A DNA stretch of 64,000 nucleotides from Tachypleus tridentatus. Lineage: Eukaryota; Arthropoda; Merostomata; Xiphosura; Limulidae. How positions within the stretch are numbered: the first letter of the stretch is position 1; the number at the start of each line of letters is the position of its first letter. The notes below the pieces were generated by a model, which did not search any database, was not told the DNA's origin, and was given only the letters and a program-made list of their open reading frames with translations. Below, piece by piece: positions 19,105 to 38,975 of the stretch. The translations under genes were made by a program, and so were the position numbers. Location of the stretch: assembly GCF_004210375.1 (NCBI RefSeq), contig NC_134833.1, positions 23,998,063-24,062,062 on the forward strand, in the 5' to 3' direction.

Positions 19105-21538
19105 GTAAGTTTGTGAAAGCATTTATTACGTCATAAATTGCAAGAAACACAGTGTTAGTGGTGAGTGGAGTTGTGTGATGTTGGCTTTCACAATCAACCA
19201 TCACAAATGGTTAAACAGTTGCGCTGAGTGTTTGGAAAGTCAATGTGATTGATTAACGAGGTTTTCTCATTTACGAACAGAAGTGCTTTTCTATTTCATT
19301 AACGGTGCGCTAGACCCACCGGTTTCTGTTTTAATTACGATACAGTGTTTAATGTATGACAAATAAATGACATTTTTACACGGGTAAGCTCGTACTCTCC
19401 AACAGAATTGCAGTTCTGATGAAAGCTCAGATGCAGTTCTGGATCTTATAGATGAAAAACCAAAAATTCACGATGTTTATATTCGTAGCCGTATTTACTT
19501 ATTGTCAGTGCCACGGAATCATGTATTACTTACATTTAACATCTACTCAGATAAATTAAACATTTTATCATATCGAACACTTCAGATAACCATTCACCTA
19601 ATTAGTGACATTCGAATCTTGGAACTGTAGATGCATAATTAGTAGCCGTGGATATAAATACTAGAATTATAAAATCAACGTTAGACCTTTGGCAAAGTGA
19701 GCCAGAGAAGGAGATTCGTCCAAAACGCTGCTTAAAAATAAAAAGTTATGAAGTCTGATGTTGGTTTTGCTATATTTTGTGTGTGTTACTTTAAATATAA
19801 CGTTTTTATATCTGAGTAATTGATGTGTTTGGTTGGAGTTAGAGGTTTTATTCCGTAACTAATTCTAAACACGTTTTTGTTGTTGTTTTTACAAACATTC
19901 TGGTGGGTCATAGAGTTTATTATGCTCAAATTTACCTATGACCGTTGACATCCATCTCTGTTGTTTACCAATCACAGGTAGCATACATCACTGTTTACCA
20001 ATCACCACTGACGCCACCTTTGTCGTTTACCAATCCCAGTTAATATTCGCCGCTTTTGACAAATCACTATCAACATCCACAGCATAATCACAACTAGTGA
20101 TATGCAAACTCTTCGTGGTCTTTATTAAGATAATATAAATATATACAAAGGTAACTAAAAATCGCAAATGTTAGCATAAACCTTAAACAGTATAATGGCT
20201 TATGAGGCCTAGCTGATTTAATTAACTCTAATCCAAAATTTATATGAAAAAATTTTAGGCTTACTCTTAGATGTCGTTAATTTGTTTTTCCAGAAAACTT
20301 TTAATAAAACGTAAGTTTGTTTTTTCTCCGTCTAACAAGTGAAATCATTTGGCGATAAGCCAAGAAGAACAAAGAATGTTATTTAAATTTCAAAACACAT
20401 CAAAAACGTATGGGAAAAGTCCAACAGACTTTGAAAACTGAGGTTATCTTTTTCCTGGTTATTTTTTACGCTACAGCTATGGTACCTTGCCCTAAATATT
20501 TCGCTTTGTAATCTCTTTGACTTATTTTAGTGAAAAACTAATGTATTTGTCTTTTTTCTAATGGTATATACATTTTTGTCACATAGTTTCCATTCTGTGC
20601 TATATATGCTATTACCTTTATTTTTTTTGCCTAGGACAGCCAAACCCTTTTATCCCTGGCTGTAGACAATTTCAAAGGAAAGCTAAGATTTACTTTTGAA
20701 ACTACATTTAAATTCTTTTAATGAAAGCTGACAATCAGAATCTATTCAAATCTTTAAATGTATTTTGTTGTTTTTGCTAGATTTGGTAGTTTAAAGTAGT
20801 TTAACCACTGAAAATGGGCACTTCCAAATATATATATATATATATTATTTTGAGCATCAAAAAATACTAGTGGCTTAAAAATTCGGCAAATTTTTACTTT
20901 ATTATTGCTAAATATAATTGGCTAAAGCATTTGAATGGCTCAGCAGAGACTAGAGTTCGAATCCTACCGAATTTCACCAGTTACATTTAAACTGTACCCA
21001 ACTGTATTTTTGTATTAGAAAAATCTAACGCTGTAAGTCTTTAATAATATCATAGTTTTATTTTACTTTTTGCAATATTCTACTCTAATTATCGCGTCGA
21101 CAGTAAAATACGTATACGCCCCAGTAAAGACTTTAAACTGTTATTTTATTGGATAATTTCATATATATATAAAGAGAATATTAATACTGAAGAGTTACAT
21201 TAAATTAAACAAAATCAACAGGAAGGATTGCGTTAGAAACAGCAACTTCAAACCTCTGACTCGTGTCTGAATTATATATATATATATATATATCAAGAGA
21301 ATATTAATACTGAAGAATTACATTAAATTAAACAAAATCAACAGGAAGGATTACGTTAGAAACAGCAACTCCAAACCTCTGACTAGTGTCTGACTAATAT
21401 ATATATATATATAAAGAAAATATTAATACTGAAGAGTTATATTAAATTAAACAAAATCAACAGGAAGGATTACGTTAGAGACAGCAACTCCAAACCTCTG
21501 ACTAGTGTCTGACTAATACTGAAAACTCTTTCTCTCAG
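19105..21538 (+). other. GluCl intron 1 (2434 bp)
   Basis: GTAAGT to CTCTCAG. Nothing recognised apart from AT microsatellites near 20830 and the three tandem repeats before the acceptor. Confidence 0.85.
21160..21520. repeat. Three ~120-bp tandem repeats abutting the GluCl exon at 21539
   Basis: Each unit has a variable (AT)n run, GAATATTAATACTGAAGAGT, ACAAAATCAACAGGAAGGAT and CAAACCTCTGACTAGTGTCT. The third ends 19 bp before the exon and includes GACTAAT, a plausible branch point. Confidence 0.92.
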
Positions 21539-21762
21539 GAATACAGTGTGCAGTTAACCTTTAGAGAACAGTGGCGAGACGAAAGGCTTGAGTTCGACGA
21601 CATGAATGGTCAGATGGCCTACTTAACCCTAACCGATCCAAACAAAATCTGGAAACCCGATCTCTTTTTCTCCAATGAAAAGGAGGGTCATTTCCATGAC
21701 ATCATTATGCCAAACGTATTACTTCGGATTTATCCAAATGGAGAAGTCTTGTATAGTATAAG
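21539..21762 (+). CDS. GluCl: GluCl exon: extracellular domain, loops D, A and E
   Basis: This 224-bp exon starts EYSVQLTFREQWRDERL and ends VLLRIYPNGEVLYSI plus two bases of an Arg codon. It forms the middle of the ligand-binding domain. The Arg in FREQW aligns with the Arg of glycine and glutamate receptors that contacts the agonist carboxylate. WKPDLFFSNEKEGHFH is the loop A region typical of GluCl, and the RIYPNGEVLYS strand is the loop E side. The 3' splice site is CTTTCTCTCAG; the 5' splice site is AG|GTAGTT, weaker than the other donors of the gene. The intron just upstream holds three tandem ~120-bp repeats that run to within about 20 bp of this exon. Confidence 0.93.
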
Positions 21763-21991
21763 GTAGTTACATTTATTTTAATATTAGGGCTACTTAACAA
21801 CAGACATACTTAATATGTATTTGTACTCATGCTAGTAACAACACGAAATTTTATGCTAATAAACTTGTAACTGCCTGTAAATATATATATATATATAAAT
21901 ATGTATCGTAATTATATTGTTTACTGCCATCTCACACTACATAAGACTTTTCAAATACTCTAAGTTTACAAAGTTTTAATGTATATAAATG

Positions 21992-22222
21992 TTATCGAAA
22001 GTTCGAATCTCTGTCACACCAAACATGCTCGCCCTTTCAACCGTGGGGGCGTTACAATGTGACGGTCAATCCCACTAATCGTTGGTAAAAGAGCAGCCCA
22101 AGAGTTGGTGGTGGGTGCTGATGACTAGCTGCCTTCTCTCTAGTCTTACATCACTAAATTAGGGACGGCTAGCGCAGATAGCCTTCGTGTAGTTTTGCGC
22201 GAAATGTAAAACAAACCAAACC
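21992..22222 (+). mobile_element. SINE family A, head-truncated, in GluCl intron 2
   Basis: Begins at the B box (AGTTCGAATCTCTGTCACAC); full body and tail follow. Confidence 0.88.
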
Positions 22223-22671
22223 ATGTTAATATTAACAAATTTATTTGCTACACCTGATGTGAGAAGAATTACGTCACAACTTTTTAAACTCGCAAACGCC
22301 TTCTCATAATGACTCGTAAAACTAAACAAATTTGTTAATATTTTTTATTAAATCTTTGTGAAAAGATAACACTGTAGACTAATTATCTACACTTTGCCCA
22401 CCACGGAGAATCAAACCTCAAGTTTTTGTGTTTTAAATCCATGACATTACTCTGACCCACTGAGAGGGGGACGTTTCATACTTTACATTATTCGGTTATA
22501 ATTTATTCAACAAAATGAAACTTAATGAATTTTTACTGGTGGCCAAACTCGTCACGTTTCAATTTGTTTTTCTTAAAATAAATAATTCATATATATGGAC
22601 CAACTTATTTTATTTTCAAATCGATGGAAATTTCTTTGATAAAATAATAAGTTAGTTAGAAACTACATTTA

Positions 22672-22742
22672 ATAGCCCCATGCGTTCAGCAGATAGCCTG
22701 ATGTAGCTATGACATTAGGAAAACACTGAAACACACGCACAC
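22672..22742 (+). mobile_element. SINE family B, 3' part only
   Basis: Has GTTCAGCAGATAGCCTGATG and a CA-rich tail; no head. Confidence 0.6.
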
Positions 22743-23711
22743 TCAGATTAACTCAAGGTTTGAAGACTGAAAATAATAGTAAAGCTTTAGATATTTTTCG
22801 TTAATTATTGTTTTAATTTTTAATTTCAATTATTAACACCAGTTCATGCTATTTATCATGTCCAATATTTTGTTGTTTCACACAGCTTGTAGTGGGTACT
22901 GGAGGTGTTTAGATATTCTGGCAGTAAAGTTAGAAAACAAAAACGTTATTTAACCAAAGTTTCATCAGGACTAGTTTACGAGAACTCAGATAACAACAAT
23001 AAAAACTTTCTCTAGACAATTATACTGATGGCACTAAAATGGCCAAACGTTGCCAGAAGTAAGAAAGTTTTTATTATCATCTGGAGAAAAAAGATAGTTC
23101 TTTTTGTTGAGCAGCCATCAGTTTCCATAATTTCCTAAAATATAAAATACTTATATGATATTTTGATAGCTTAACGATGCACGCTATGAGTTAAAGCAAT
23201 CACTAAATAAAGCAACGGTTGGAGTTTTTGAAAAGCGTTGCATCTATATGATAGCTCCTTGTAAATTGTATGTTTTAGATCCAACCATACGAAGGTAAGT
23301 TTTACTTATTTCCTCATTTTGATTTTCAATTTTGTGACTGAATAATAGCCGATTAAAAAGATCCGAACAAGACGTAATACACGCGTTGCTAACTAAAATC
23401 ATTGATTTCTCTACTGACGCTTAACCCTTCTCGAGCGAAAGCCTTTAACGTTTAGTAAATTAAATCTTTTAAGAATGTGAATAGTAATAGAAACGTTGTT
23501 TTTATTCCACGAGTTTCACTAAAGCATTGAGACTTGAGAAGACGTGCGCTGTAATTAGAAACGTCTCAGAAGTCTGCGAAAAACAAATATCTGTAACAAA
23601 AAGAACAAACACTAAGCTTATTAGTAAACCTCAAAAACACAACTAATCCAATAAGATCGAATCGTTTCGTTGCTCATACAATTGTAATGTACTCGTTAGG
23701 ATTGTTTATTG

Positions 23712-23882
23712 ATTTTTTGAAGCAAAGCCACACTGGTCTATCAGCTGTGTAAATCGCGGGGAATCGAACCTCGGATTTTAGTACTGTAAGTTCGTAGACT
23801 TACCGTTCTTCTGTTGTGGGATTCCCCTCGGTGGGCTTAGCAGATAGCCCGTGTGGCTTTGCTATTAGAAAACACACACACT
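23712..23882. mobile_element. Inverted pair of SINE family B copies
   Basis: A - strand copy (about 23715-23816) is followed immediately by the 3' part of a + strand copy (about 23820-23881, CTCGGTGGGCTTAGCAGATA). The shared parts are inverted relative to each other. Confidence 0.7.
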
Positions 23883-23895
23883 GTTAGATTTGTAT

Positions 23896-24164
23896 ATTTT
23901 TTTAAATTCGCGCAAAGATACATGAGGACTAGCTGCGTTAGCCGTCTCTAATTTAACCATGTAAGACTAGAGGGAAGGCAGCTAGTCATCACCGCTCACC
24001 GCTAACTCTTGGATAACTCTCTTACTAACGAATAGTGGAATTGACCGTCACATTATAACGTCTTCATGGATAAAACGGCGAACATGTTTGGTGTGACTGG
24101 GTTCGAACCCGCGACCAAAAGATTACGACTCGAGCGCCCTAACCACTTGGCCATGGCGGCTCGG
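23896..24164 (-). mobile_element. SINE family A, full length
   Basis: - strand, tail to head (CCACTTGGCCATGGCGGCTC), moderately diverged. Confidence 0.88.
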
Positions 24165-24247
24165 AGAGTGTTGGGATTGTTCTAAAAAATTAAGTTGTTG
24201 GTTAATAATGAATTATATGAAGCAATAATTTATCTCTCTGCTCAAGT

Positions 24248-24370
24248 GTCCACTCAGTGGCATAGCGGTGTGTCTGCGGACTTATACTGCTAGAAACCAA
24301 GTTGCGATACGCGTGGTGGGCAGAGTATAGATAGCCCTTTGTTTAGTTTTGTGCTTGATGACAAACAAGT
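24248..24370 (+). mobile_element. SINE family C, full length
   Basis: Reads CACTCAGTGGCATAGCGGTG, GTGGTGGGCAGAGTATAGAT, then GTTTTGTGCTTGATGACAAA. Confidence 0.85.
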
Positions 24371-24476
24371 GTTAAAATATTTATTTCATAGAACTTTCAG
24401 CTTATTATGAGTTACTAAGTTTTGCTTTCAGTGACCCTTAACCCTAAAGTTTAATAGCTGAGTATTCACTATTATA

Positions 24477-24588
24477 CGCCCCTCGTTAGTACAACGGTAA
24501 GTCTACAGACAACATTAATATCAGAGGTTCGATTCCTCTCGGTGGGCTCAGCAGATAGTCCGATATGGCTTTGCTATAAGAAAACACA
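24477..24588 (+). mobile_element. SINE family B, full length
   Basis: Reads CCCCTCGTTAGTACAACGGT, GAGGTTCGATTCC, then TATGGCTTTGCTATAAGAAA. Confidence 0.88.
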
Positions 24589-24963
24589 AATATTTTAGCT
24601 CAAATAAAAAATATAAAACCTAAAAATATAACTAACACCCTTACATGTAATATTGCAGGAACGTCTATATATTACTTACCACAATCTCAGTAACACATAA
24701 GTTACGATATTTTACAGCTTTCTATATTTAAATGCAAAAGTGAATATAGTATAGATATATACATTTAAATCGATTAGCATTATTTTTCGAGTGAAATTGG
24801 TCTTTATTCATCGATATACAAATTTCTCACGAGGACGGTTTCAGATCTTAACTTTCTAACTGACACCCTGTGTAACAAAAGTTCGTCATTTAAGATCTAC
24901 TTTCAACGAAATAATAATTACTAAAACTTACTATTAATAAATAATATTTTTAAACCTCCAAAG

Positions 24964-25046
24964 GATTTCGTTAATGTTATCCTGCCCAATGGACCTGAAG
25001 TATTACCCTCTGGACAAACAGACCTGTTCTATCATCATGGCCAGCT
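24964..25046 (+). CDS. GluCl: GluCl exon: Cys loop
   Basis: This 83-bp exon completes Arg (AG|G) and encodes ISLMLSCPMDLKYYPLDKQT followed by CSIIMAS and the first base of a Tyr codon. The two Cys residues are separated by 13 residues, the defining spacing of the Cys-loop receptor family, and the YYPLDKQTC core is typical. In the folded receptor this loop sits at the interface between the extracellular domain and the membrane. The donor is CT|GTAAGT. The acceptor is CTCCAAAG with almost no pyrimidine tract, unusually weak for the gene. The exon is too short to be visible as an open frame and was found by reading the expected phase and motif. Confidence 0.93.
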
Positions 25047-27214
25047 GTAAGTATATAGCATAATAATGTTACCCTATTATCTCTATTAATATCATCTATA
25101 GATTAAATCAGTATCAGTTAAATAGCGTTATAGTAAACTTTGTGAATAATTTTCAGCCCTTGTTACTACTACTTAGCACGAGCTACTGTCTGAGTGGTTT
25201 TTGTCAGCCTGACGTTTATTCAGTCTACTTTATCAGCGAACATTCTCAAAGCAAACTTTCGGGAATTATTGTAATATAAAACAAATTGACTTTTTTTTAC
25301 AGTGTCTTTATTCGGTTGCTTTACTATCACTTAAAAATTTAAATGAATTTAACGAGGCGTTTCTTTTTTTGCGATAGTACAGGTTATAGTAAAACTTGAA
25401 ACATTTGGAGAAGTTTATTACTGCGTTCGCCAGTGTAAACCTTTTGTTTTTTTGTATCCATTAACTAATGTCCAAGTGGGAAATAATCAGAATAATTTTT
25501 AAAGTACACTTATGTCTATTGTACGAAATTAAAATTTTCTCTGAATAATGTAATATGTGTCGCTTTAGACATTTTAGTTTGCAAAAACTAGTTCAGGAAA
25601 GACGTTTTCATAAAAGTTTTGGAAAGTTCTCATTTTTCAAGCTTAAATTAGTCCTTACAAGCCCAAGGACCTATGTCTCCTAATAATACAGTTTTCTTCC
25701 AGAACTTAAAAGTGGCACTGATTTCTTTTGTATGAACCTCGAAGCAAATGAACCTCCTGTCCAAATCTTCTAAAAGCACGAAACCTTTCCATTGAGTTCT
25801 TTCCATCTTCATGGGTCTTAATGACCGAGTTAAAAAAAACAAAAACTTCACAAAATGATGTACAGCTTTAGGCCCAAATAAAAAACATTCAAACTTAATT
25901 TAGTTTTCAACTCTCAAAAGAAACTGTTTCTGTCTGGAAATAAAGAAGAAAGAAACCATTAAGGAACATCAGGAAGGAGTAAAAAGTAGATTTGTGAAAT
26001 GAAAGACTGTTGGCAGATTGCGTTAATTCATCCTTAAAGGAAACTCGAACATTCTAATCATATCAGACTCGCTTCACGTCACTGCAATACTTTGGTTCGT
26101 ATAATCAGCGATAAAATATTGGGAGAAAAAGATCTTCATCAGGGGAGACCTTCGAACATTCTGGATATTGAACTGGAAATTAAATCATTGCATCGAAAGT
26201 TGCGTTTATGCTAAAATTTAAACTTAGTAAGTTTCTGAATAGTAAAAATTATTATTGGTTTTGCATTTAAAGTCTCAGACGCTACGGTCGTCGTCACTGT
26301 AAGAAGCCATTTCTTTGTGAGCTCGGTTATGATATAAGGATATAAAGAAATTCTGTTGCTTACCTTTTGTGGTATATATTTCACTTTTTTGTACTTTAAT
26401 CTTAAAACCTTGGCAAGTTGTTGTTGTTTTTTTTAAATTGGTTTTGATATTTATAACCACATTTTGTGCGTGACGTAACATTAAAGGGATATTTCATTGT
26501 GAGTTTAGATTACTGACTGGAAACAAAATATGGGATTTCGTTTTCTTACCACCGACCACTTTCATTCATAATATCATGTTATTAAACTACAGTTGGATAA
26601 CAATATTAGAGTACGGGTATCGGAAGAAAATACGTAAGAAACTTAAGCTTACGCACAAAATAAACATTTAAGTAATTGGAGAGAGCTCTGTGGTTCTTAC
26701 TGTAATACTTATTGTATCAGAAGCGACAGTGGTCATGATGTGAAACATGTTTTTAAATATAGGATCCTACTGTAAGTCAGACACTGTTTGTTTCTACAGC
26801 TGTTATGTATACATAATTGAACAGCGACTCAGATACTAACCACCCGATGGCTACTTTATACTTCTGAACTCGGAAACTTGTGCTTGGGCCACTTAAGAAT
26901 AATTTAATTAAACTGGTATCAATTTTATCATACGTAATGAGCCATATACTACAGACCAACAGAACACACCTCTCCAATGTAGGAACTACACGTTATAAGC
27001 TTTTTTATCAGTAATAGTCCTCGTTTCCTTAATGTCATAACTACAGTAGAATCTTACCGAAGACCACGAACTCAAACAGTTGTTTTTTTCTTATCAGCAA
27101 TAGTCTTCATTTGGTTAATGTCGTAACTACAATAGACTATTACCGAGGAACAATAACTCATACACTCAACTTTGTTGTTGTTTTTACTAATTTGTTTCTG
27201 GATTTCTACGTCAG
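25047..27214 (+). other. GluCl intron 3 (2168 bp)
   Basis: GTAAGT to TACGTCAG. The only GluCl intron without a recognisable SINE; no exon or RNA gene seen. Confidence 0.85.
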
Positions 27215-27349
27215 ACGGATACACGACAGATGACCTTGTATTCCTTTGGAAAGTTGGAGATCCAGTACAAGTTACCAAAAACCTTCATCTTCCACGGTTT
27301 ACATTGGAAAAGTTCAACACTGAATACTGTACCAGCAAAACAAATACTG
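27215..27349 (+). CDS. GluCl: GluCl exon: loops B and C, ending inside a splice-donor minisatellite
   Basis: This 135-bp exon completes Tyr (T|AC) and encodes GYTTDDLVFLWKVGDPVQVT, then KNLHLPRFTLEKFNTEYCTS and KTNT plus the first base of Gly. The first part is the loop B region. Insect GluCl usually has GWTTND; this one has Tyr in place of Trp, as in vertebrate glycine receptors. The Cys in EYCTSKTNTG is the first of the second disulfide pair that closes loop C, and its partner lies in the next exon (EYSC). The acceptor is TTTCTACGTCAG. The natural donor is ACTG|GTAAGT at 27350, but the last 23 bases of the exon and the donor are tandemly repeated into the intron for 1.3 kb, so the real exon end could be any of several equivalent donors. 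The first donor gives exactly the conserved family sequence TNTG|EYSC. Confidence 0.93.
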
Positions 27350-28671
27350 GTAAGTACAAACTACGTTCTGTGAACTGTACCAGCAAAACAAATACTGGTA
27401 AGTACAAATTACGTTCTGTGAACAGTACCAGCAAAACAAATACTGGTAAGTACAAACTACGTTCTGTGAACAGTACCAGCAAAACAAATACTGGTAAGTA
27501 CAAACTACGTTCTGTGAACAGTACCAGCAAAACAAATACTGGTAAGTACAAACTACGTTCTGTGAACTGTACCAGCAAAACAAATACTGGTAAGTACAAA
27601 CTACGTTCTGTGAACTGTACCAGCAAAACAAATACTGGTAAGTACAAACTACGTTCTGTGAACTGTACCAGCAAAACAAATACTGGTAAGTACAAACTAC
27701 GTTCTGTGAACTGTACCAGCAAAATAAATACTGGTAAGTACAAACTACGTTCTGTGAACTGTACCAGCAAAACAAATACTGGTAAATATACAGCAAAACA
27801 AATACTGGTAAGTACAAACTACGTTCTGTGAACTGTACCAGCAAAACAAATACTGGTAAATATACAGCAAAACAAATACTGGTAAGTACAAACTACGTTC
27901 TGTGAACTGTACCAGCAAAACAAATACTGGTAAGTACAAACTACGTTCTGTGAACTGTACCAGCAAAACAAATACTGGTAAGTACAAACTACGTTCTGTG
28001 AACTGTACCAGCAAAACAAATACTGGTAAGTACAAACTACGTTCTGTGAACTGTACCAGCAAAACAAATACTGGTAAATATACAGCAAAACAAATACTGG
28101 TAAGTACAAACTACGTTCTGTGAACTGTACCAGCAAAACAAATACTGGTAAGTACAAACTACGTTCTGTGAACAGTACCAGCAAAACAAATACTGGTAAG
28201 TACAAACTACGTTCTGTGAACTGTACCAGCAAAACAAATACTGGTAAATATACAGCAAAACAAATACTGGTAAGTACAAACTACGTTCTGTGAACTGTAC
28301 CAGCAAAACAAATACTGGTAAATATACAGCAAAACAAATACTGGTAAATATACAGCAAAACAAATACTGGTAAATATACAGCAAAACAAATACTGGTAAA
28401 TATACAGCAAAACAAATACTGGTAAATATACAGCAAAACAAATACTGGTAAGTACAAACTACGTTCTGTGAACTGTACCAGCAAAACAAATACTGGTAAG
28501 TACAAACTACGTTCTGTGAACAGTACCAGCAAAACAAATACTGGTAAGTACAAACTACGTTCTGTGAACTGTACCAGCAAAACAAATACTGGTAAGTACA
28601 AACTACGTTCTGTGAACTGTACCAGCAAAACAAATACTGGTAAGTACAAACTACGTTCTGTGAACAGTACA
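27327..28671 (+). repeat. 48-bp minisatellite made of GluCl exon end plus 5' splice site
   Basis: The unit runs from GTAAGTACAAACTACGTTCT through the last 23 bases of the exon (CTGTACCAGCAAAACAAATA plus CTG). GTAAGT donors stand at 27350, 27398, 27446, 27494, 27542, 27590, 27638, 27686, 27734, 27808, 27882, 27930, 27978, 28026, 28100, 28148, 28196, 28270, 28448, 28496, 28544, 28592 and 28640: 23 copies. A 26-bp variant unit begins with GTAAAT instead and occurs at 27782, 27856, 28074, 28244, 28318, 28344, 28370, 28396 and 28422: 9 copies. The 48-bp unit has no stop in the exon's frame, reading GKYKLRSVNCTSKTNT. The open frame from the exon ends at TGA 27829-27831, after the first 26-bp unit shifts the phase. 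Long open frames on both strands are a by-product of the repeat. Confidence 0.97.
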
Positions 28672-28805
28672 TGAAAGTAACAATCAGATAATCAAAGTAC
28701 GATATTGTGTTTTAATGGCAGAAACGATAAGACATTCACAGTAAAATAATGTGTTTTAATGGTAGAAACAATAAATAATATAATCACAACTAAAACAAAA
28801 GATGT

Positions 28806-28992
28806 CTCAGAAAACCAACACCAACTGCTACAGTGTTTAGATGCTAAACGCGTCTAAACAATTATGCTGCAAAACATGAACACCAACTGTAGTGTTTAGA
28901 TGTTAAAAACGTCTAAACACTAATGTTACAAAACATCATCACTAAATGCTACAGTGTTTAGGTGCTAAACACGTCCAAACAATAATGCTACA
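28806..28992. repeat. Three ~60-bp repeats with an internal palindrome
   Basis: Each unit has GTGTTTAGATGCTAAACGCG and TCTAAACAA; GTTTAGA and TCTAAAC are inverted copies. It lies just after the splice-donor array. Confidence 0.8.
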
Positions 28993-29127
28993 TACCTTAC
29001 CATCTCAGATTCTAATTCTACATGTTTGTATACGTGATTTCAAATTTTGGTCATTCTGTTGCAATAATTTGGTGGAATTAGAGTGAGATTAGAATTTTCA
29101 CCCTATGCGCGTGATTTGAACGGTCAG

Positions 29128-29218
29128 ACTAGTTGTTTTAGAACAAAGTGACATCGAAAATCGAACCCCACATTTTAGCGTTCTAAGTCCGTTAACTTAT
29201 CACCGTACCACCAGAGGA
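29128..29218 (-). mobile_element. SINE family B or C, partial
   Basis: - strand fragment with the B-box complement AAAATCGAACCCCACATTTT and head ATCACCGTACCACCAGAGG. Confidence 0.6.
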
Positions 29219-29478
29219 CTAAACAGTCAGGGCACAAATCCGCAAGGTTCACGTATTATCGTCCCTGATTTTGATTTACTGAACAGGGATAAGTCAGACA
29301 TCAGCACTCGCCGCTATTAATATCTTGCCTGACTTTTGAACTGTGTAATAGAATCAGTAAAGTGTAATATGAGGTGCTTTAATGGAGTGAAACACTTCGA
29401 TTTGGGAGTAAAAAACAACAACCAAGGACAGATTTATTTAATATAGCTTTTTAATTAATTACGGTTTCTTAAATTATA

Positions 29479-29755
29479 GGCCCGGCATGGCCAAGCATGT
29501 CAAGACACTCGGTTCGTAACCTGAAGGTTACGGGTTCAAATCCCTGTCACACCAAACATGCTCGCCCTTTTAGCCGTGGGGGCGTTATAATGTGACGGTC
29601 AATCCCACTATTCGTTGGTAAAAGAGTAGCCCAAGAGTTGGCAGTTGGTGGTGATGACTAGCTGCCTTCCCTCTAGTCTTACACTGCTAAATTAGGGACG
29701 GCTAACGCAAATAGCTCTCGTGTAGCTTTGTGAGAAATTCTAAACAAATAAACAA
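29479..29755 (+). mobile_element. SINE family A, full length with target duplication
   Basis: Complete copy starting GGCCCGGCATGGCC. A perfect 12-bp duplication TCTTAAATTATA flanks it (29467-29478 and 29756-29767). It is the best reference copy for the family's exact ends in this window. Confidence 0.96.
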
Positions 29756-29849
29756 TCTTAAATTATATCTTTTTCCTATGATCACACATTCAGTGATCTT
29801 TAAATAAAACATAACGAAGATACAAAATCGACTAATCCAAGAAAAGACG

Positions 29850-29982
29850 CCTCCCCCCAGTAGCACAGAGGTATTTCTGCGCAATTACAACGCTAGAAAC
29901 CAAGTTTCGATACCCATGGTGGGCAGAGCACAAATAGCCCATTGCGCAGCTTTGTTCTTCACTTTAGAAAAAAACAAACAAA
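29850..29982 (+). mobile_element. SINE family C, full length with likely target duplication
   Basis: Complete family C copy with an A-rich tail; CCAAGAAA stands at 29837-29844 and 29983-29990. Confidence 0.85.
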
Positions 29983-30628
29983 CCAAGAAACGGCACTGCA
30001 GCAGCCCGCTGACGTAATCAGCTTGCCTTAACACGTGACTGCATTTCTTAAGAAATATCAGTTTATAGAAGTGCCTTTTGACTTTTATAACAATGCCATT
30101 TTAATCAAATGTATCTGATCCTCTTACTGTGTGTGTGTGTAATTAACAAAGTTGTCTTGCTCTGTCTAAGAGTCTTACATAAAAGTAATTGTAAAGTTGA
30201 TAAAGCTTCATAGAGAAGAAAATTATTAATAAATTAGAAAAATTAAAATCGACATTTAGACATACGTCACCAACTTGACTGTGCTACAGTTTTGATGAAT
30301 GTTAAAAAGAAAGGAGCTCTGTTAATGAAAGAGGGAAAATTCGCATTATGAAGATTCTTTTCCGTCGTTCCGTTGCTTAATCAGATAGAGACATTCTGCT
30401 GATTCGACAAACGCCGAGAAAGGAAACTGCTTCGTTAAACATTGCTTAATTAGTCCTGCAATCGATTTAGTTCGGAAAAACCAAACCTTGGATTTTCCTG
30501 GTTTCTAGTGGATTTTTGTTGTTGTTTTCCTGAGTTATTTAGATGTTTCAGAATATTTTATACAGAATTGTTAAGATGAAGTGCTTTGAAAATGTCTACA
30601 AAATGTTTCTTAATCTACACAGTATTGC

Positions 30629-30854
30629 TTGTTTGTTTGTTTGTTTTTAATTTCTCGCAAAGCTACACGAGGGCTATTTGTGCTAGCCGTTCCTAATTTA
30701 GCAGTGTAAGACTAGAGGGAAGGCAGCTAGTCATCACCACCTACCGCCAACTCTTGGGCTACTCTTTTACCAACGAATAGTGGGATTGACCGTAATATTA
30801 TAACGCCCCCACGGCTGAAAGGGCGAGGATGTTTGGAGTGACGGGGATTCGAGT
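30629..30854 (-). mobile_element. SINE family A, head-truncated
   Basis: - strand copy from the T-rich tail complement to the B box (GACGGGGATTCGAG); the rest of the head is missing. Confidence 0.88.
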
Positions 30855-31391
30855 CTACACATAAGAAAAGTAAAATGTATGGTATCAGAAGGTATTTTAA
30901 ATAATTCGTTATACCGGATGGTGTATAACAATTTAGATATACCAGTGACACAAGATTGTTGTGATAGATATTTCTGGTCTCAACCGACTACCGAAAAGTT
31001 TATAAACGTTTGAAGGATATAGAACAGAAGATAATTTGCTTGGGCATTTGTCTGTACATGCTGCCGTCTGGAAGTGACTGAAGAAATCTTTAGTGGAATT
31101 TAAAACTTAAACCTGGATGTCGAAGCGCACGTGGAATAAAGTGCCAGGTCGGAGATTCATAACCTCAATAATAATGATCTATAATTTTGAACTACTGATC
31201 AGATAAAATGTGACTAGCCAGCAGCACTTATCGCCACAAGGAACTTGAATGACTGTCACTTTTATAACGCAGAATATTTTTAGCATTATCACACCTTAAA
31301 ATACAAAAACTCTGTGTACAAAGTGTGACACGTTCAGAGCTGACCACTCCCGACAGCTGAAGCTATAAACATATCATGTTTATTCTCCAAC

Positions 31392-31542
31392 ATTTCATCA
31401 CTTTTTTACCAATGAATAGTGAAATAGGCCGTTACATTATAACGCCCCTACGGCTGAAAAGGCGCAAGCATGTCTGGTGTGACAGAGATTTGAACCCGCT
31501 GATTAGGAGTCAAGCGTCTTATAACAGCTTGGCGTGCCATGC
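31392..31542 (-). mobile_element. SINE family A, 5' half; isolated head fragment nearby
   Basis: - strand, from CCAATGAATAGTG to the head. A second isolated head fragment (TTAACACGCTTGGCCATGCC) is at 31760-31785. Confidence 0.75.
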
Positions 31543-32445
31543 CTAAACTTATAACTAGAATCCTACCATATTAAACAACGTTTACTAACAGATTTCGAGG
31601 TCTAGCTGTGATTATTTTATGTAGCTCGTAAAGGAATGTTAGATATTAAACTTTATTTTTTTAAAGAGTTTCTTAGGTTCAGTTAAACCAGACTTAAAAA
31701 CGTGTGGATTATGGTTTACGACAATAAAACAAAAAGAATGAAAAATGAAGGACCATTGTCTTAACACGCTTGGCCATGCCGGGCAAGACCATTGTCCTAA
31801 TGTTTTCTAGTTCGTGAATAACGTTTTGTTTGTTTGTTTATATTGCTATTTATGAAAACACTGCGCACTCGAGTTTCCCCGTGTAACGTTAAGTCACAGC
31901 TGTTTCATAGTTTGACTGGTTGTCATATAACAGTCGACAGTTGCATTCGAAATGTTACGTTATTTTAAAATTAGGTTTAAAGTGACAGCATACAAGCACG
32001 AAACGCCTATCAACTGGTGCAAATAACCTTGTCGTAAGAATTCAGATTATAGTTAGCATCTGATATTTATATCTTGAACTTCACGCCACTAAGTGGTAGA
32101 GGACCAGAGATACCCGAGGGTCAAACATAACCATGTTTTTTTCAGCACCTGGAATCTCGGACCTTTCATCCCACAGCCAAGCCCATTAACTACCGGGCAA
32201 AACTCAGCCCAAATTACAAAATTTAGTATGTCAATATTGAGGTTTAGATCAAAGTGACATAATGAAAGAAAATGTTATAATAACATGGTGGAAAAACGTT
32301 AGTTGTGACCGAAATAGAATCATTTGATAATATTAGTTTATTACCACAAACGGTTTTACATTCATTATTTCATAATCAAGAGAGTCTTTAGACTTCACTT
32401 ACAAATTTGCTATTCTGTGCGCTACACGAGTGACAATGACTCATT

Positions 32446-32672
32446 GTCAGCGGGTTCAAATCTCTGTCACACCAGACATGCTTGCGCCTTTTCAGCCGTA
32501 GGGGCGTTATAATGTAACGGCCTATTTCACTATTCATTGGTAAAAAAGAGGAACCCAAGAGTTGGCGGTGGGTGCTAATGACTACCTGCCTTCCCTCTAG
32601 TTTTACACTTCTAAATTAGGGACAGCTAGCCCAGATAACCCTCGTGTAGTTTTGCGCGAAATTCAGAAACAA
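32446..32672 (+). mobile_element. SINE family A, head-truncated
   Basis: Starts near the B box (GCGGGTTCAAATCTCTGTCA); full body and tail. Confidence 0.88.
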
Positions 32673-33263
32673 ACAATTAATTAATTATATTAATGTTTTA
32701 GAATCTTGATTGATTTCCTCTGATTGCGTTCATGTTTTAGACTTTCGATCAGCTTGGTCTAATAGTGGTATTGTTTTAACTTTTCGGTTTTAAAATTTTA
32801 ATCTATTTTAATATTACCTTATCAATATACATCTGTTGAGGCCATAAGGTAAAGCAGAAGACAGTAAAGAAAGATTTCATTCAGTTAATTAATTAATTAT
32901 AATTGTTTTGTTAGATTTGTAGCATTGTAAAATTCGAAGGAAGTTAGTAAAAGAGACTGTATCCAAACAGTAACTGTTTAATCAATCACAAACTGTCTGA
33001 AAGATGCCTTAAGAAGTGCGTCAACAACGACATGTTTGATCAACGATTTGAGGGAACGAGTTTGTTTTACTCGGGAAGACGAGTCAGGTGTAATTAATAA
33101 ATAATTACTGAAGATATCTGGAAGCTTCCCTTGTGCTCTTTTTATTATTCTGTTTTTATTTTTTATGCTGTGTAATGTGCTATACACACCAATTGGCTCT
33201 TAAGAAATTCATGACTACATTCATAAAAAAAAAAATCATTTGAGCCATAGGTTTGAGTGCGTG

Positions 33264-33373
33264 TTTGTTTTTATAGCAAAGTCGCATCTGACTATCTGCT
33301 GTGTCCACCGAGGGGAATCGTACCCTTGATTTTATTGTTGTAAATCCGTAGTCTTAACGCTGCTCCAGCGGAA
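33264..33373 (-). mobile_element. SINE family B
   Basis: - strand copy with TTATAGCAAAGTCGCATCTG, CCGAGGGGAATCGTACCC and AACGCTGCTCCAGCGG. Confidence 0.75.
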
Positions 33374-34234
33374 GAAGTTCCAACCGTGGGAATCACAATA
33401 AAAGATGATTAATAAAACGTATGTACGTGGTAATTTTTTTCCATCGGTTGCTGTTCGTTTCCCAGTTTCCATTTCAATACTTCCGTCACACAGTAATGTA
33501 TAAACTCTACTGCCGGAGACTTGACTGCTATGCCTTAGTGAGTAAAAGGCTGAATAGTAATTGAATGGACATAATATGAAAGAAATTTGTGAGCAAGTAA
33601 TTTGTGTCACTTTTACGGACGGAGTCGTGCCTTTAATTACTTTGTATATTGTTGCCTTTGATACAAGAATGGCTTTTGTTTCTGACCTTTGTCTTCGTGG
33701 ATCCTTACCTGTTACAAGACGAATAATTTGTTTACCACAGCTGGGCTATGATTTTTTCTTGCGTGCAGGTTTCTTTCTTGCTGGTCCTGATCTCCCAAGA
33801 TGATCCATAAAATTTTGTTTTCCAATATCATTAATGTAGAAGAGATATCTCTAATCTGAGTACATATCTGTGGTGTGCGTGTGTGTTTTGATATTTTGCC
33901 TCCGGGTGTTTTCCAAAAAAACAGTCAATTTACACAAATAACACCAAACAATATTAAAACGTAGTTTTGATATAACTTGTTCCACAGCAGCTGCAAACCA
34001 TTTCAATTAAAACATATTTACAACAAAAGTAAAAAAGAGAATGCCCTAAACATGTCAGTTATTGAGAATACTACCTTAGCTTCTCCTGTATAATTTCAAG
34101 GCCAATCAACAACAATGAAGTGTAGATGGACTACAGTACTAATTATTTTTTTATTACAAATCAACAGGTTGAGTAGGTCGTAGTAATTCGTGTGTTTTAG
34201 TAACATTAGTGCCGATGGTAGATTACTCAGGATT

Positions 34235-34360
34235 TTGGCACAAAACTACATAAAGAACTATCTGCACATAGCCGTCCCTGAACCGGAAATGATAGGTTAA
34301 ACCACTTACCACCATCCACCTCCAACTCTGGAGCTACTCTAGTCTGGTCCATTAATGGTA
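34235..34360 (-). mobile_element. Very diverged SINE family A fragment
   Basis: Only short blocks survive, such as CATAGCCGTCCCTGAA and CCACCTCCAACTCTGGAGCT. It abuts, and may run into, the hairpin at 34361-34452. Confidence 0.5.
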
Positions 34361-34452
34361 TTTCACTCTCACTACTATCGTACACCCATGACCCCGTACA
34401 GTCACGCTTCGCACGTTGGGATCATGAGTGCACGATAATAGTGAGAGTGAAA
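34361..34452. repeat. Short inverted repeat (35-bp arms, 22-bp loop)
   Basis: Arms 34361-34395 and 34418-34452 are complementary at 31 of 35 positions. The outer arm reads TTTCACTCTCACTA. All four differences are transitions. Confidence 0.85.
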
Positions 34453-34547
34453 GACGCAACAAACAGAGAGAACGGATGTGACGTAGTAGTTAGTTGCGTC
34501 ATTTGACATATTATCGACAACGCTTAAAAAGGTGTTAACATCTTAGA

Positions 34548-34660
34548 GTTTGTTTCAAAGGAAAGCCACGTTGAAATATCTGCTGTGTCCAACGTGGATA
34601 CTCGAACCTCGGATTTTATCATTTCAAGTCTGTAGATTTGCCACTTTGCCACCGGAGGAC
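34548..34660 (-). mobile_element. SINE family B, diverged
   Basis: - strand copy: AGGAAAGCCACGTTGAAATA, TATCTGCTGTGTCCAACGTG, head CACTTTGCCACCGGAGGA. Confidence 0.7.
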
Positions 34661-34789
34661 ACATATCACACGGGTCACATGAACCTAAATCAATGTGCTG
34701 AGAATCAATCGCGAAATATTTCTTTTTCAAAATATTTATGAGTCAATTATTTCTTTATCCACAACATGTAAATATATATATATATATTT

Positions 34790-34903
34790 CTGGTACAGCG
34801 GTAAGTCTACGGATTTACAACGCTAAAATCAGGGGTTCGATTCCTCTCGCTGGACTCAGCAGATAGCCCAATGTGGCTTTGCTATAAGAGAAACACACAC
34901 ACA
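34790..34903 (+). mobile_element. SINE family B, near full length
   Basis: Follows an AT microsatellite; reads TACAGCGGTAAGTCTACGGA, GGGGTTCGATTCC, then TGGCTTTGCTATAAGAGAAA. Confidence 0.88.
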
Positions 34904-35310
34904 TATATGTATGGGTGTTGTTGTTTTTTTACGTTTAACCAATAACCTTTTTAAGTTACCAAAAATAACTAAATCAAAGTTGTCTGGAGGTTACCCGAGG
35001 ATGCTTCTCAGTGAATGCGACTGGACAAATAATTTATCTCGCAAAATAGAAATCAAACAAATCCATTATATATGTTTGCCTTAATGTCACCTGTTCATAT
35101 TTTCAAATCCATGATATTTCTTTCTTACATCATTTGTTCTGTTCTCACATCTAAGATTTTTGTTTCTTCTATCATGATGTTACTTGTCCGTACTTTCAAA
35201 TCCACGATATTTGTTTCTTATGTCACATTGTAACTTGTCCGTATTTCCAAATCAGTATCTTCCTTATATCATAACGTCACTTTTCTATATTTTAAAATCA
35301 AGAGTATTTC

Positions 35311-35631
35311 AGCGCCGGCGTGACCAGGTGGTTAAGACGCTCCATTCGTAATCTGAGGGTCGCGGGTTCAAATTTCGCGTAAAGCTACACGAAGGCTATC
35401 TGCGCTAGCCGTCCCTAATTTAGCAGTGTAAGACTAGAGGGAAGGCAGCTAGTCATCACCACCCACCGCCAACTCTTGGGCTACTCTTTTACCAACAAAT
35501 AGTGGGATTGGCCTTCACATTATCATGCCAACACGGCTGAAAAGGCGAGCATGTTTGATGTGACGGGAATCCGAACCTGCGGCCCTAAAATTACGAGTCG
35601 AGTGCTTTTAAACACCTGGCCATGCCGGGCC
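35311..35631. mobile_element. Chimeric inverted SINE family A just upstream of the TM exon
   Basis: A + strand head (35311-35370, GTGACCAGGTGGTTAAGACG to the B box) joins straight to a complete - strand copy (35371-35631) that ends in its own head. The two ~58-bp heads are inverted repeats at the ends. It lies 71 bp before the acceptor of the TM1-TM3 exon. Confidence 0.88.
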
Positions 35632-35702
35632 TCGTTTTTATCTCTCTCTGTTTCAAGAAATCAAATTTCAAATTACTGAAATGTTTAATTCTTTTATTTT
35701 AG

Positions 35703-36121
35703 GGGAGTACAGCTGCATCCGAGTGGACTTAATATTCAAGAGGGAGTTCAGTTACTATTTGATACAGATCTACATCCCTTGTTGCATGCTGGTCATCGTT
35801 TCTTGGGTATCCTTTTGGCTGGACCAAAACGCTATTCCCGCACGAGTTTCGTTGGGGGTCACAACTTTGCTCACCATGGCAACACAAACTTCCGGTATCA
35901 ACGCGTCACTTCCACCCGTGTCCTACACTAAGGCCATTGACGTGTGGACTGGAGTCTGCCTAACCTTCGTGTTTGGAGCATTGCTGGAGTTTGCTTTGGT
36001 GAATTATGCGTCAAGAACGGACATGCACAAACAGGCCGCTAAGCAGCAGCGTAAATGGGATATCGAACACTCTAGTTTGGACACTGACCACATGGAGGAT
36101 GGAGCTACCACTTTCGCCATG
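35703..36121 (+). CDS. GluCl: GluCl exon: TM1, TM2, TM3 and start of cytoplasmic loop
   Basis: This 419-bp exon completes Gly (G|GG) and starts EYSC, giving the second Cys of the loop C disulfide. TM1 is [20 protein letters not shown] and following. The sequence [20 protein letters not shown] carries the Pro-Ala-Arg motif just before TM2 that marks anion-selective members, then the pore-lining helix. TM3 is [20 protein letters not shown]. The Gly in WTGVC aligns with the TM3 position (Ala288 in human GlyR alpha1) where Gly favours ivermectin binding. The exon ends in the TM3-TM4 loop with [16 protein letters not shown]. Acceptor TTTATTTTAG, donor ATG|GTAAGG. A chimeric inverted SINE lies about 70 bp upstream of the acceptor. 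Confidence 0.95.
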
Positions 36122-36381
36122 GTAAGGAACGTTACATGTTGCATGTTGTTTTCTACCCCCTACCCCACCCCATTGTGGTACACTTTACACTGTTATTTTA
36201 CGCTATTTTACGCTAATTTAGTCTTACCTTTCTTTAAGTTATTGTACCAAAAGAACGACACTCGCAAATCTGGTGTTGTCAGAAACAAACATAACAAATT
36301 ATTGAACTATAATTAACGAGAGTATATATTCTAATTAATTAATTAATACACACCAGTGTAGCAACAGAAGTGATTGCACAA

Positions 36382-36500
36382 TGTGACCTTGTTTGTTGGT
36401 CGTTCTGTCCGTTATTCACTCCTCGTTCTTTCAGAAGTCTCTCGTCTCAAGATTTTGGTTCATTTATTTCACACAATATTCACACAAAGCTACACAATAA
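36382..36500 (+). pseudogene. Duplicated 3' splice site and start of the GluCl terminal exon
   Basis: 36382-36447 copies 38085-38141, differing by one 8-base indel and a few substitutions. It includes the intron end, the acceptor GTTCTTTCAG (AG at 36433-36434) and the first codons, with KSLV in place of KPLV. After 36447 the similarity ends and the sequence enters an old SINE A copy. If spliced from the donor at 36122, the reading frame would add 21 codons and stop at TAA 36498-36500, giving a receptor without the end of the loop and TM4. It may be an inert partial duplication or a minor alternative terminal exon. Confidence 0.7.
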
Positions 36501-36722
36501 TTATCTGATTTTTCAAGTGGTAAACTATAGAAAAGGCAGCCAGCTAACAGCAACAACCGTCGAATCTTGAGATGCTTTAAAATCGATAATGGGTTTTGAC
36601 AGTCACCCTTATAACGCACCCACAGCCCCGATGTGCGGAACGCGATTTTTATCGTTACAGCAAAACAGAGACCCGCATTAGAACCCTTGAATCCGCAGCG
36701 TAGTACGTCTGGCCAGTACCTC
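36463..36722 (-). mobile_element. Very diverged SINE family A
   Basis: Blocks CACACAAAGCTACACAATAA, AGGCAGCCAGCTAACAGCAA, CACCCTTATAACGCACCCAC and the head-like TACGTCTGGCCAGTACC are in family A order on the - strand. Confidence 0.6.
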
Positions 36723-37334
36723 AAAAGAAGACCAAAATTCGAAATAACAATATAAATTTACAATTTTGATATTGTGTTCAACAACAACAAGACGAATGCT
36801 TATGTTTCTTCCGAGAAACAACTAGAAAAACAAATGTTAAACATAAAATAGAGAAACCTCTTATTATTTGAAAGTGTAAGTTTTATTATGGATTTAATAA
36901 TGATAAACATTTCAATAAGCAAAACAGATATGTGATATTTTGTGTTGTTTTTATAATTTGTTGTACACTGACGAATTCAGAACGATAATTTAAGCTTCGG
37001 TGTTATTTGTCAAAACTGATGCAGCTACTTTCAAAGTTTAAATCAAAAAGACCAAGTTCATACAGCGTCGAACGTTTTTCACTTCTTATATTTTGTTCAT
37101 TCTGCTTCATGAGTCACAATATTCAAGGTTAAAGATGAATTCCAACTTTATATCAACACTGAGGTATGAGTAATTTTGTCCTAATTACCGAAGTTATTTT
37201 AAAGCGTTTGAACTTAAACGGAATGTTCAGACGAACTTAATTAAAGAAGCCTAATTTAAGGTACTTAATTAAAGGAAGTTTCTTTATGCTTTCAAACATT
37301 TTAATTTGATAACGAATGTCATTAAGTTTTTATG

Positions 37335-37650
37335 GGGTAGTTTTTAGCCTGCTAAATTGTGAATTTCAAGGTCCAAGGTTCGAGCCTTAGCATGATGATG
37401 AACACTTCTGCACTTCCAGTTGTGGGGCGTTATAACTGTGACAGTTAATCTCCCTTCAGTGTGTGTGTATGTTTTCTTATAGCAAAGCCACATCGGGCTA
37501 TCTTCACCGATTGGAATCGAACCCCTGATTTCAGCGTTGTAAATCCGTAGACTTACCGTTGTACTAGCGCGGGGGCTCCCTTCAGTAAATATTAGTCATC
37601 TAAACGGCGGGTGATAGTTGGCCACCTATTGGTCAATAATTCTAAATTGG
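37335..37650 (+). mobile_element. Old SINE A-like copy split by a family B insertion
   Basis: 37335-37460 has a B-box-like AAGGTTCGAGCCTTA and body CAGTTGTGGGGCGTTATAAC. The body resumes at 37576 with AAATATTAGTCATC and GGCGGGTGATAGTTGGC. Confidence 0.65.
37461..37575 (-). mobile_element. SINE family B, nested, with target duplication
   Basis: Complete - strand copy; the 11-bp duplication CTCCCTTCAGT is at 37450-37460 and 37576-37586. Confidence 0.92.
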
Positions 37651-38129
37651 AGATCTTTATCCCTGGAACTAGGGATCTTTGAACTGCCCACTTATAACCC
37701 ATCTATCGTATAAATGATTTAGGAAGTGGGTGTTTAATTTTGCTTTACAGATTTGCACTTTGCTAGGAAACAGCAGAATGTATGAAATATAGAATCAGTT
37801 TGTTTCATGAATCTTTAACAAAAATTTTAAACTGGAAGTAAAAGGCAACGAAAATAAAAGTAGTTAATTTGTTATTGGTATTTGACATAATCGGTGTCAT
37901 TAAATAACTCGTGTACTATATATAATAGCATTGTCTGTGATTTCACCTACAATAACATTAAATAAGCATACTGCATTCTGGTCAGATATCAATGCCACCA
38001 CTGGCAAAATAGAACGTTGTATTTAAAGCATATAAAATTATGAAACTGTAAAAATAATAATCTCTGTGTTATTTATTAAGAAGCTGTGACCTTGTTTGTT
38101 GGTCGGTTATTCACTCCGCGTTCTTTCAG

Positions 38130-38360
38130 AAGCCTCTCGTGCACCATCGTGGAGACATGCATTCTGATAAAGTTCACCAATGTGAAGTCCACATGAAACC
38201 CCCGAAGAGCATCAACCCTTGCAAGGCCTGGCTCAACAAATTCCCTTCTCGCTCCAAGCGGATTGATGTCATGTCGAGAATCCTGTTCCCTCTCATGTTC
38301 GCTCTCTTCAACCTCGTGTATTGGACGACCTATCTCTTCCGGCACGAAGAAGATATATGA
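38130..38360 (+). CDS. GluCl: GluCl terminal exon: cytoplasmic loop end, TM4 and stop
   Basis: This 231-bp exon encodes 76 residues and a TGA stop. It begins KPLVHHRGDMHSDKVHQCEV and continues HMKPPKSINPCKAWLNKFPS, as expected for the end of the TM3-TM4 loop; the KPLV start and the CEVHM stretch are family hallmarks. The basic SRSKRIDVMSR motif precedes TM4 (ILFPLMFALFNLVYWTTYLF), and the protein ends RHEEDI, close to the usual EEED-type ending. Acceptor GTTCTTTCAG. About 57 bp spanning this acceptor and the first codons is duplicated 1.7 kb upstream inside the intron. Confidence 0.95.
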   Translation, partial: KPLVHHRGDMHSDKVHQCEVHMKPPKSINPCKAWLNKFPSRSKRIDVMSRILFPLMFALFNLVYWTTYLFRHEEDI

Positions 38361-38969
38361 CTCTTTGTTCATCTTCTCGGGTGCGTGGTTTTGTGGGAAG
38401 TAATGGAACCGTTTGGCAACGCAGCAAAAGCGGAGCAGTTTTCTGAAAATCAAACTTTTATTTTTCAGTCTTAACACATCTTCTACGAGATAGAAAACAA
38501 CAACAATCTAGGTTATAATGTTAAACAATGGATTTGTTGTCAGATGAAAAGCAGCGATGGTAAGGACACGACGCATGCGCATGTTCGTAGCGTAACGTGG
38601 TTTCCAATTTCAAGCTAGAGAAATACCACGGCATTTTCTTGCGTGCCAACTTAACCGTGAAAATGAATGCAGAACAGGTGTCTTTGGACGAAAAAAAAAC
38701 AACAACAACACGAAACATCGATCGTCAACGTGCTTTTGCTCAGTAGTGTGAACTCAGGACTTGGCCAGAAATAACGTAACACAGTAAACAGCGCCTCTGT
38801 TGGAGAAAGATGGCAAAAGATCATGTAGTTCTTGTTCATTAACAAAGCGAATCCTACTCAGTAAATGAAAAACTGAGAGCTAATGACGAAATTTATTTTA
38901 AAAACACACGAATTTAGTTATTCTATTATAGAGACAAATATTATGGAAGGATGGAATCACTCAGTTGTA

Positions 38970-38975
38970 AATAAA
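38970..38975 (+). terminator. Candidate GluCl poly(A) signal
   Basis: AATAAA, 610 bp after the GluCl stop and the first canonical hexamer I see downstream of it. It would give a 3' UTR of about 630 bases. Position only; no transcript evidence. Confidence 0.4.

Follow-up and report, generated by a model that had tools for sequence, protein, structure and literature searches.

In a gene for a glutamate-gated chloride channel (GluCl) of the horseshoe crab Tachypleus tridentatus (genome size 2.17 Gb), a minisatellite straddles the boundary between the exon for the ligand-binding loop C and the 8 kb intron that follows, and the donor splice site of that exon is repeated along with it. Judged from the genome sequence, this array is probably a locus-specific minisatellite that was born across the exon-intron boundary and is passively tolerated, with the first donor as the working one. 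The stretch of DNA analysed here, 64,000 nucleotides in length, is referred to as the window; the coordinates of the features within it are collected in Table 1.

The host gene

NCBI protein P0001, named glutamate-gated chloride channel-like isoform X1 of Tachypleus tridentatus, is 100% identical to the GluCl of the window. When the segment 19035-19104 is joined to the exons listed in Table 1, the reading frame is open throughout, and the product of splicing from donor 1 matches the last 386 residues of P0001 letter for letter; the exon set covers these 386 residues and leaves out the exons for the first 59. The best match among solved structures is 3rhw, the GluCl alpha of C. elegans (E 4.3e-101, query residues 2-252 of 255), and the Cys-loop, the loop C cysteine pair and the transmembrane segments TM1-TM4 are all present (CPMDLKYYPLDKQTC, YCTSKTNTGEYSC and the TM exons). 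As far as the coding sequence goes, the assignment of the gene to the GluCl group of Cys-loop receptors holds, in line with the NCBI names of its relatives, and the gene reads as intact. A search against Rfam gave no matches within positions 20000-40000 of the window.

Another array of the same gene, 119 bp x 3 (21161-21518), stops about 20 bases short of the exon that starts at 21539. Its copies contain the stretch just upstream of the pyrimidine tract of the acceptor, including CTGACTAAT, which we take to resemble a branch point.

Table 1. Features of the GluCl gene and of its loop C array (positions in the window)
Feature	Position	Strand	Basis
GluCl exon, EYSVQL...YSIR	21539..21762	+	tblastn of P0001, in-silico splice
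GluCl Cys-loop exon, ISLMLSCPMD...IIMAS	24964..25046	+	tblastn of P0001, in-silico splice
GluCl loop C exon (exon 5 of the set), ends ...YCTSKTNT/G	27215..27349	+	tblastn of P0001; splice equals P0001
Minisatellite over exon end and intron start	27326..28670	+	TRF, unit decomposition
ACTGTAC, exon side of the microhomology bounding the unit	27326..27332	+	sequence, unit variants
Donor 1 (GTAAGT), site of the NCBI model	27350..27355	+	NCBI model, in-silico splice
Donors 2-10, in phase, intact receptor on paper	27398..27787	+	in-silico splice
Donors 11-32, premature stop each	27808..28645	+	in-silico splice
TGA, first stop in frame on reading from the exon into the array	27829..27831	+	in-silico reading
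ACAGTAC, intron side of the microhomology; array end	28664..28670	+	sequence, unit F
Next exon, EYSC..., TM1-TM3; acceptor TTTTAG before 35703	35703..36121	+	tblastn, in-silico splice
Last coding GluCl exon with TM4; end approximate (end of tblastn match)	38130..38357	+	tblastn, in-silico splice

Anatomy of the array

A reading made from the sequence alone (hereafter the sequence-only reading) had described the exon end and its donor as amplified in 48-bp steps, and the unit decomposition bears this out: the array, which runs from the loop C exon into the intron, comprises 22 units of 48 bp, nine units of 26 bp and a last partial copy, and each 48-bp unit consists of the last 23 bases of the exon and the first 25 bases of the intron, so that exon end and intron start are held in one and the same tandemly repeated unit. 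The copies are highly uniform (16 of the 22 48-mers and all nine 26-mers are identical), and complete 48-mers vary only at positions 12, 27 and 40. When up to three mismatches are allowed, a 23-base core of the unit occurs 32 times in the window, against 0.00 expected from 100 shuffles.

The array contains 32 donor-like sites, namely 23 GTAAGT, spread over 27350 to 28640, and nine weaker GTAAAT. The first nine GTAAGT donors follow one another at exactly 48 bp and share one phase, as had been claimed; donors 2-9 lie at 27398, 27446, 27494, 27542, 27590, 27638, 27686 and 27734. The claim can be extended by the GTAAAT sites, one of which, at 27782 (donor 10), is also in phase.

Position 27 of the unit occurs as T or A, matching the two sides of the breakpoint (exonic ACTGTAC and intronic ACAGTAC, respectively); this difference points to the microhomology as the likely birthplace of the array. 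The first nine units are all in-frame 48-mers and include none of the frame-breaking 26-mers, which occur only later. The 26-mer-free start has a naive p of 0.025 if units are treated as independent and of 0.08 by runs, and is a weak hint of constraint.

Donor sites and coding consequences

All 32 donor sites were spliced in silico to the acceptor at 35703. Donors 1-10 leave the receptor intact, with 0 to 144 added residues, and accordingly more than one strong, frame-compatible donor is available (10 of the 32 sites yield an intact product). Two claims of the sequence-only reading are thereby reproduced: the exon frame meets no stop before the TGA at 27829, and splicing from the nth of donors 1-9 gives an open receptor with (n-1) x 16 residues inserted between TNTG and EYSC. 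With the remaining 22 sites (donors 11-32) the frame closes 392-1230 nt before the last exon junction is reached, and a premature stop that far upstream of the last junction exposes an mRNA to nonsense-mediated decay by the usual rule.

Each unit would insert 16 residues, KYKLRSVN(C/S)TSKTNTG, with one T-to-I variant, which bring a net charge of +4, one N-glycosylation sequon and one Cys or Ser. The ten in-frame forms accordingly have 0 to 6 extra cysteines, and the inserts would fall between the two loop C cysteines. By its composition, the predicted insert is chemically awkward for a ligand-binding loop.

The predicted energy of the U1 duplex at CTG/GTAAGT, the core common to all GTAAGT copies, is -8.8 kcal/mol, as strong as the best other donor of the gene that was examined (19105, also -8.8); the values for the donors at 36122, 21763 and 25047 are -8.5, -6.3 and -5.1 kcal/mol, respectively, and that for the GTAAAT copies is -5.3 kcal/mol. 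Given the equal strength and the near-identical flanks, position alone would decide which donor is chosen. Exon definition with an intron of 8 kb favours the short exon, that is, donor 1, and minigene work on strong duplicated donors has often found the copy nearest the acceptor to be preferred. In the Tachypleus gene the latter choice would yield unproductive mRNA, so that use of the first donor calls for an explanation, for which we propose, as a candidate, exon definition with the short exon and the 8 kb intron. Because the acceptor-nearest choice would be ruinous here, the actual outcome of donor choice is an informative measurement. Only reads that cover 25 or more bases of the exon can separate donor 1 from the others (GAATACTG versus GTGAACTG), and short reads cannot tell donors 2 and later apart, the units preceding them being near-identical.

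Folding predicts a hairpin at each of the donors examined, with a mean unpaired probability of 0.07-0.27 over 11 sites; the hairpin at 27322-27363 pairs the donor with the exon end. The hairpin is modest (z -1.5 to -2.2). Six paralogs were folded, with L045 left out as near-identical to L044, and donor-covering stems were found in three of them (L039, -12.4; L041, -6.9; L042, -5.3 kcal/mol), which leaves some room for a role of the structure. L040, L043 and L044 do not form the same stem, and pairing of the donor in a hairpin was rejected as the mechanism. In L039 both partners of a base pair are altered (U-A to C-G) and the stem is kept, possibly by chance.

Is the insert made?

The predicted NCBI model of the gene uses donor 1 and lacks the insert. 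The label "isoform X1" of P0001 implies that there are further isoforms; one of the four members of the P0001 cluster was examined. A search with a 128-residue insert against the representatives of about 5.8 billion clustered proteins scored 7986 candidates, none at an E value of 10 or better, and this query might have missed an insert of a single unit. With one unit and its flanks as the query, no horseshoe-crab protein with the insert was present among the best 120 of 847 matches. Of the 207 proteins gathered as relatives of P0001 and as matches of the one-unit search, 206 were parsed for an insert in loop C, and none of these 206 carries the repeat insert; loop C is plain in all eight horseshoe-crab GluCl proteins.

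Inserts of another kind occur at or near the same junction in 11 of the 206 proteins (Aedes, four; Anopheles, two; Periplaneta, Ladona and three others) and vary in length and sequence. Those of Aedes (P0124-P0127) add 21 residues at TNTG/EYSC, and those of Anopheles (P0137, P0145) add 40. All six mosquito inserts start with GK, and their sequence is unrelated to the array unit; this start fits a read-through of a GTAAG or GTAAA donor, so that the mosquito inserts look like retained introns. The 11 proteins show no more than that some gene models have an enlarged loop C. The top match of the one-unit search, P0121 of Oratosquilla oratoria, was rejected as a case of a loop C insert; this 608-residue GluCl model has the EYSC-TM exon twice, and the duplicated TM exon resembles a mutually exclusive or a mispredicted one.

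Paralogous loci and the base rate of arrays

Seven other GluCl loop C loci were found in the genome, and none of the seven has an array at the exon end. Two of them, L044 and L045 (C19:51.01M and C19:51.57M), are inverted copies that are 99.1% identical over 2.7 kb and differ in the copy number of intronic minisatellites (71.6 versus 74.6 and 18.2 versus 21.2); they represent either a recent duplication or unmerged haplotypes.

A search of the genome with the exon end plus a unit, in which a limited number of candidates was scored, returned 21 matches, 17 of them at this locus and four in single exons of paralogs. In the same search, the locus at C11:46.23M (L040) aligns through the exon end and 25 bases into the intron at 81%. 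In an ungapped comparison anchored on the donor, 22 of 35 intron bases of this locus match the last copy of the array, the best of 719 background sites, which include the L040 site itself; the unexpanded state thus appears to be still visible there. Unlike these two comparisons, unrestricted local alignment of the paralog introns with the intron part of the array did not reach significance at the 95% shuffle level.

Each of the seven loci was scanned over about 400 bases downstream of the boundary for a further, diverged copy of it. The C19 pair has one such copy, with 27 of 37 bases matching and a score of 34 that 1 and 0 of 1000 base shuffles attained; scores at the remaining five loci stayed within the 95% shuffle level. 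The copy, which TRF had missed, lies about 47-84 nt after the loop C donor in L044 and L045 (the donor of L044 is at 8218) and has a donor-like CAG/GTACGA 69 nt after the first donor, in phase and behind an in-frame TAA; the NCBI protein of the C19 paralog (P0013) has a plain loop. The same loop C boundary was therefore duplicated once in a paralog.

Arrays with a period of at least 10 make up 12.3% of the window (10.4% without the loop C array) and 15.5% of the sequence at 30 Cys-loop receptor exon loci, three of them inside the window. Arrays at exon edges were found at five of 78 exon matches, namely the loop C array and two arrays of the C19 pair, each counted twice; in this count the ends of matches approximate the ends of exons, and diverged copies such as that of the C19 loop C escape it. 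With the C19 pair counted once, three events are seen in the GluCl family, or four with the C19 loop C copy. The array at exon 3 of the C19 pair is 61 bp x 2, with the donor copied out of frame, and that at the last coding exon is 104 bp x 6. The former (61 bp x 2.0) spans 1700-1821 in L025 and 1429-1550 in L026; the exon part of its second copy is diverged and the intron part identical, and read-through hits a stop at once. The latter (L057, 1347-1968; L059, 731-1353) consists of about six degenerate 104-bp copies of the exon end, including TM4 and the stop codon.

The phase of the ladder was compared with 19,429 simulated boundary units drawn from the other GT(A/G)AG sites on the plus strand of the window, of which 14.9% are in phase with an open frame. 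At this frequency the ladder needs no selection to explain it, and selection for phase, as argued from 48 bp being a multiple of three together with the open frame, was rejected. The genome-wide pattern of GTAAGT pairs was uninformative, the reversed control being as frequent (412/343 versus 456/330).

Origin of the array and alternative explanations

In the scenario we favour, a tandem duplication at the near-match between ACTGTAC at the exon end and ACAGTAC at the intron start would have occurred in one Tachypleus GluCl gene and copied 23 exonic and 25 intronic bases, the donor included. Growth and homogenisation would have followed, as in the numerous other minisatellites of the genome, and a 26-bp unit with the weaker GTAAAT donor would have derived from the 48-mer and spread in the later part of the array. 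Donor 1 presumably makes the working receptor, and the later donors would be redundant copies, rarely or never used; if used, those up to 27782 would place a basic, glycosylatable insert in loop C, and those after 27782 would produce mRNAs open to nonsense-mediated decay. The array would thus be tolerated rather than maintained for function, and most likely came about by accident in a genome rich in repeats. A function of the later donors is unlikely, and their use at a low level is possible.

As an alternative, the array could act on dosage as a decoy, soaking up U1 snRNP and diverting transcripts to the unproductive donors 11-32, with its length tuning the amount of receptor; the position of the stops at 22 of the 32 sites, the predicted strength of every GTAAGT copy and the donor stems, which recur in three paralogs, are all compatible with such a role, but the hairpin is modest and lacks a counterpart of the same form in the other three paralogs, and the gene is conserved despite a majority of donors that spoil it, so that we regard this role as unlikely. 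The sequence-only reading had instead suggested a graded set of GluCl receptors, whose loop C would be longer by 0, 16, 32 and more residues according to which of donors 1-9 (donor 10 may be added) is used. Although all ten in-phase sites leave open frames and the annotated proteins of other arthropods have inserts at TNTG/EYSC, this function is not supported and appears improbable: the NCBI model lacks the insert, proteins with the repeat were found neither among the cluster representatives nor among the best 120 of the 847 matches, the mosquito inserts are unrelated and look like retained introns, each unit would bring its charge, sequon and Cys or Ser in between the loop C cysteines, only 10 of the 32 sites are productive, none of the seven paralogous loci has the array, and an open in-phase unit arises by chance in 14.9% of simulations. 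The other role offered by that reading, redundant donors that guard the splice, fits poorly because 22 of the 32 sites give a truncated reading frame.

It is highly doubtful that the array forms a splice-site ladder prone to slippage, whose copy number, together with the choice of donor, would govern how long and how charged loop C is and how much of the mRNA goes to decay; if true, this would amount to a heritable and rapidly changing tuning of a ligand-gated channel. An error of assembly in the length of the array, or in the array itself, is very improbable: long near-identical arrays are error-prone in assemblies, a single assembly is the source of this one, and the C19 copies with 99.1% identical flanks differ in the copy number of their arrays, be it by real variation or by assembly error, but the ordered mix of 48-bp and 26-bp units with three variable positions argues against an artefact, as does the way in which the array grades into genuine exon and intron at its ends, although the copy number may still be wrong.

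Comparison with known systems

With the tolerated minisatellite as the preferred reading, the interest of the locus for specialists lies in a natural competition assay among 5' splice sites, set up by 23 strong identical donors in a conserved receptor gene, and not in a demonstrated series of isoforms. The array poses the questions of which of many equal donors wins over an intron of 8 kb and how a gene survives with 22 of 32 sites unproductive. It also shows that tandem duplication in this horseshoe crab has repeatedly affected exon edges of the GluCl family, the loop C boundary of a second paralog among them.

Several known systems share some of these features. The mosquito GluCl models (P0124-P0127, P0137, P0145) likewise are intact apart from additional residues at TNTG/EYSC, but their inserts have other lengths and sequences, contain no repeat and look like intron retention. 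In alternative 5' splice sites and in minigenes with duplicated donors, several donors compete for one acceptor, as they could here; the Tachypleus array differs from the minigenes in being natural, with 23 copies of one donor, mostly at fixed spacing and with near-identical flanks. The VNTR in exon 3 of DRD4 also has a 48-bp unit that encodes 16 residues in a neurotransmitter receptor gene; it is wholly exonic and always translated, whereas half of the Tachypleus unit is intron and could become coding only through the choice of donor.

Minisatellites at exon-intron boundaries are already known. The term "tandem repeat" does not occur in the available portions of PMC7210998 and PMC7815833. In the available portion of PMC2812944, variable internal tandem repeats are described at exon-intron boundaries of human paralogs, and the likeness to the present case is close, in that a minisatellite lies over an exon-intron boundary in a duplicated gene family and can alter splicing or add repeats of residues. 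The emphasis in that portion is on repeats kept in exons and on novel introns from cryptic sites, whereas in Tachypleus, as known from the genome alone, the annotated donor itself has been copied more than 20 times, with the first ten copies in phase, in an invertebrate receptor.
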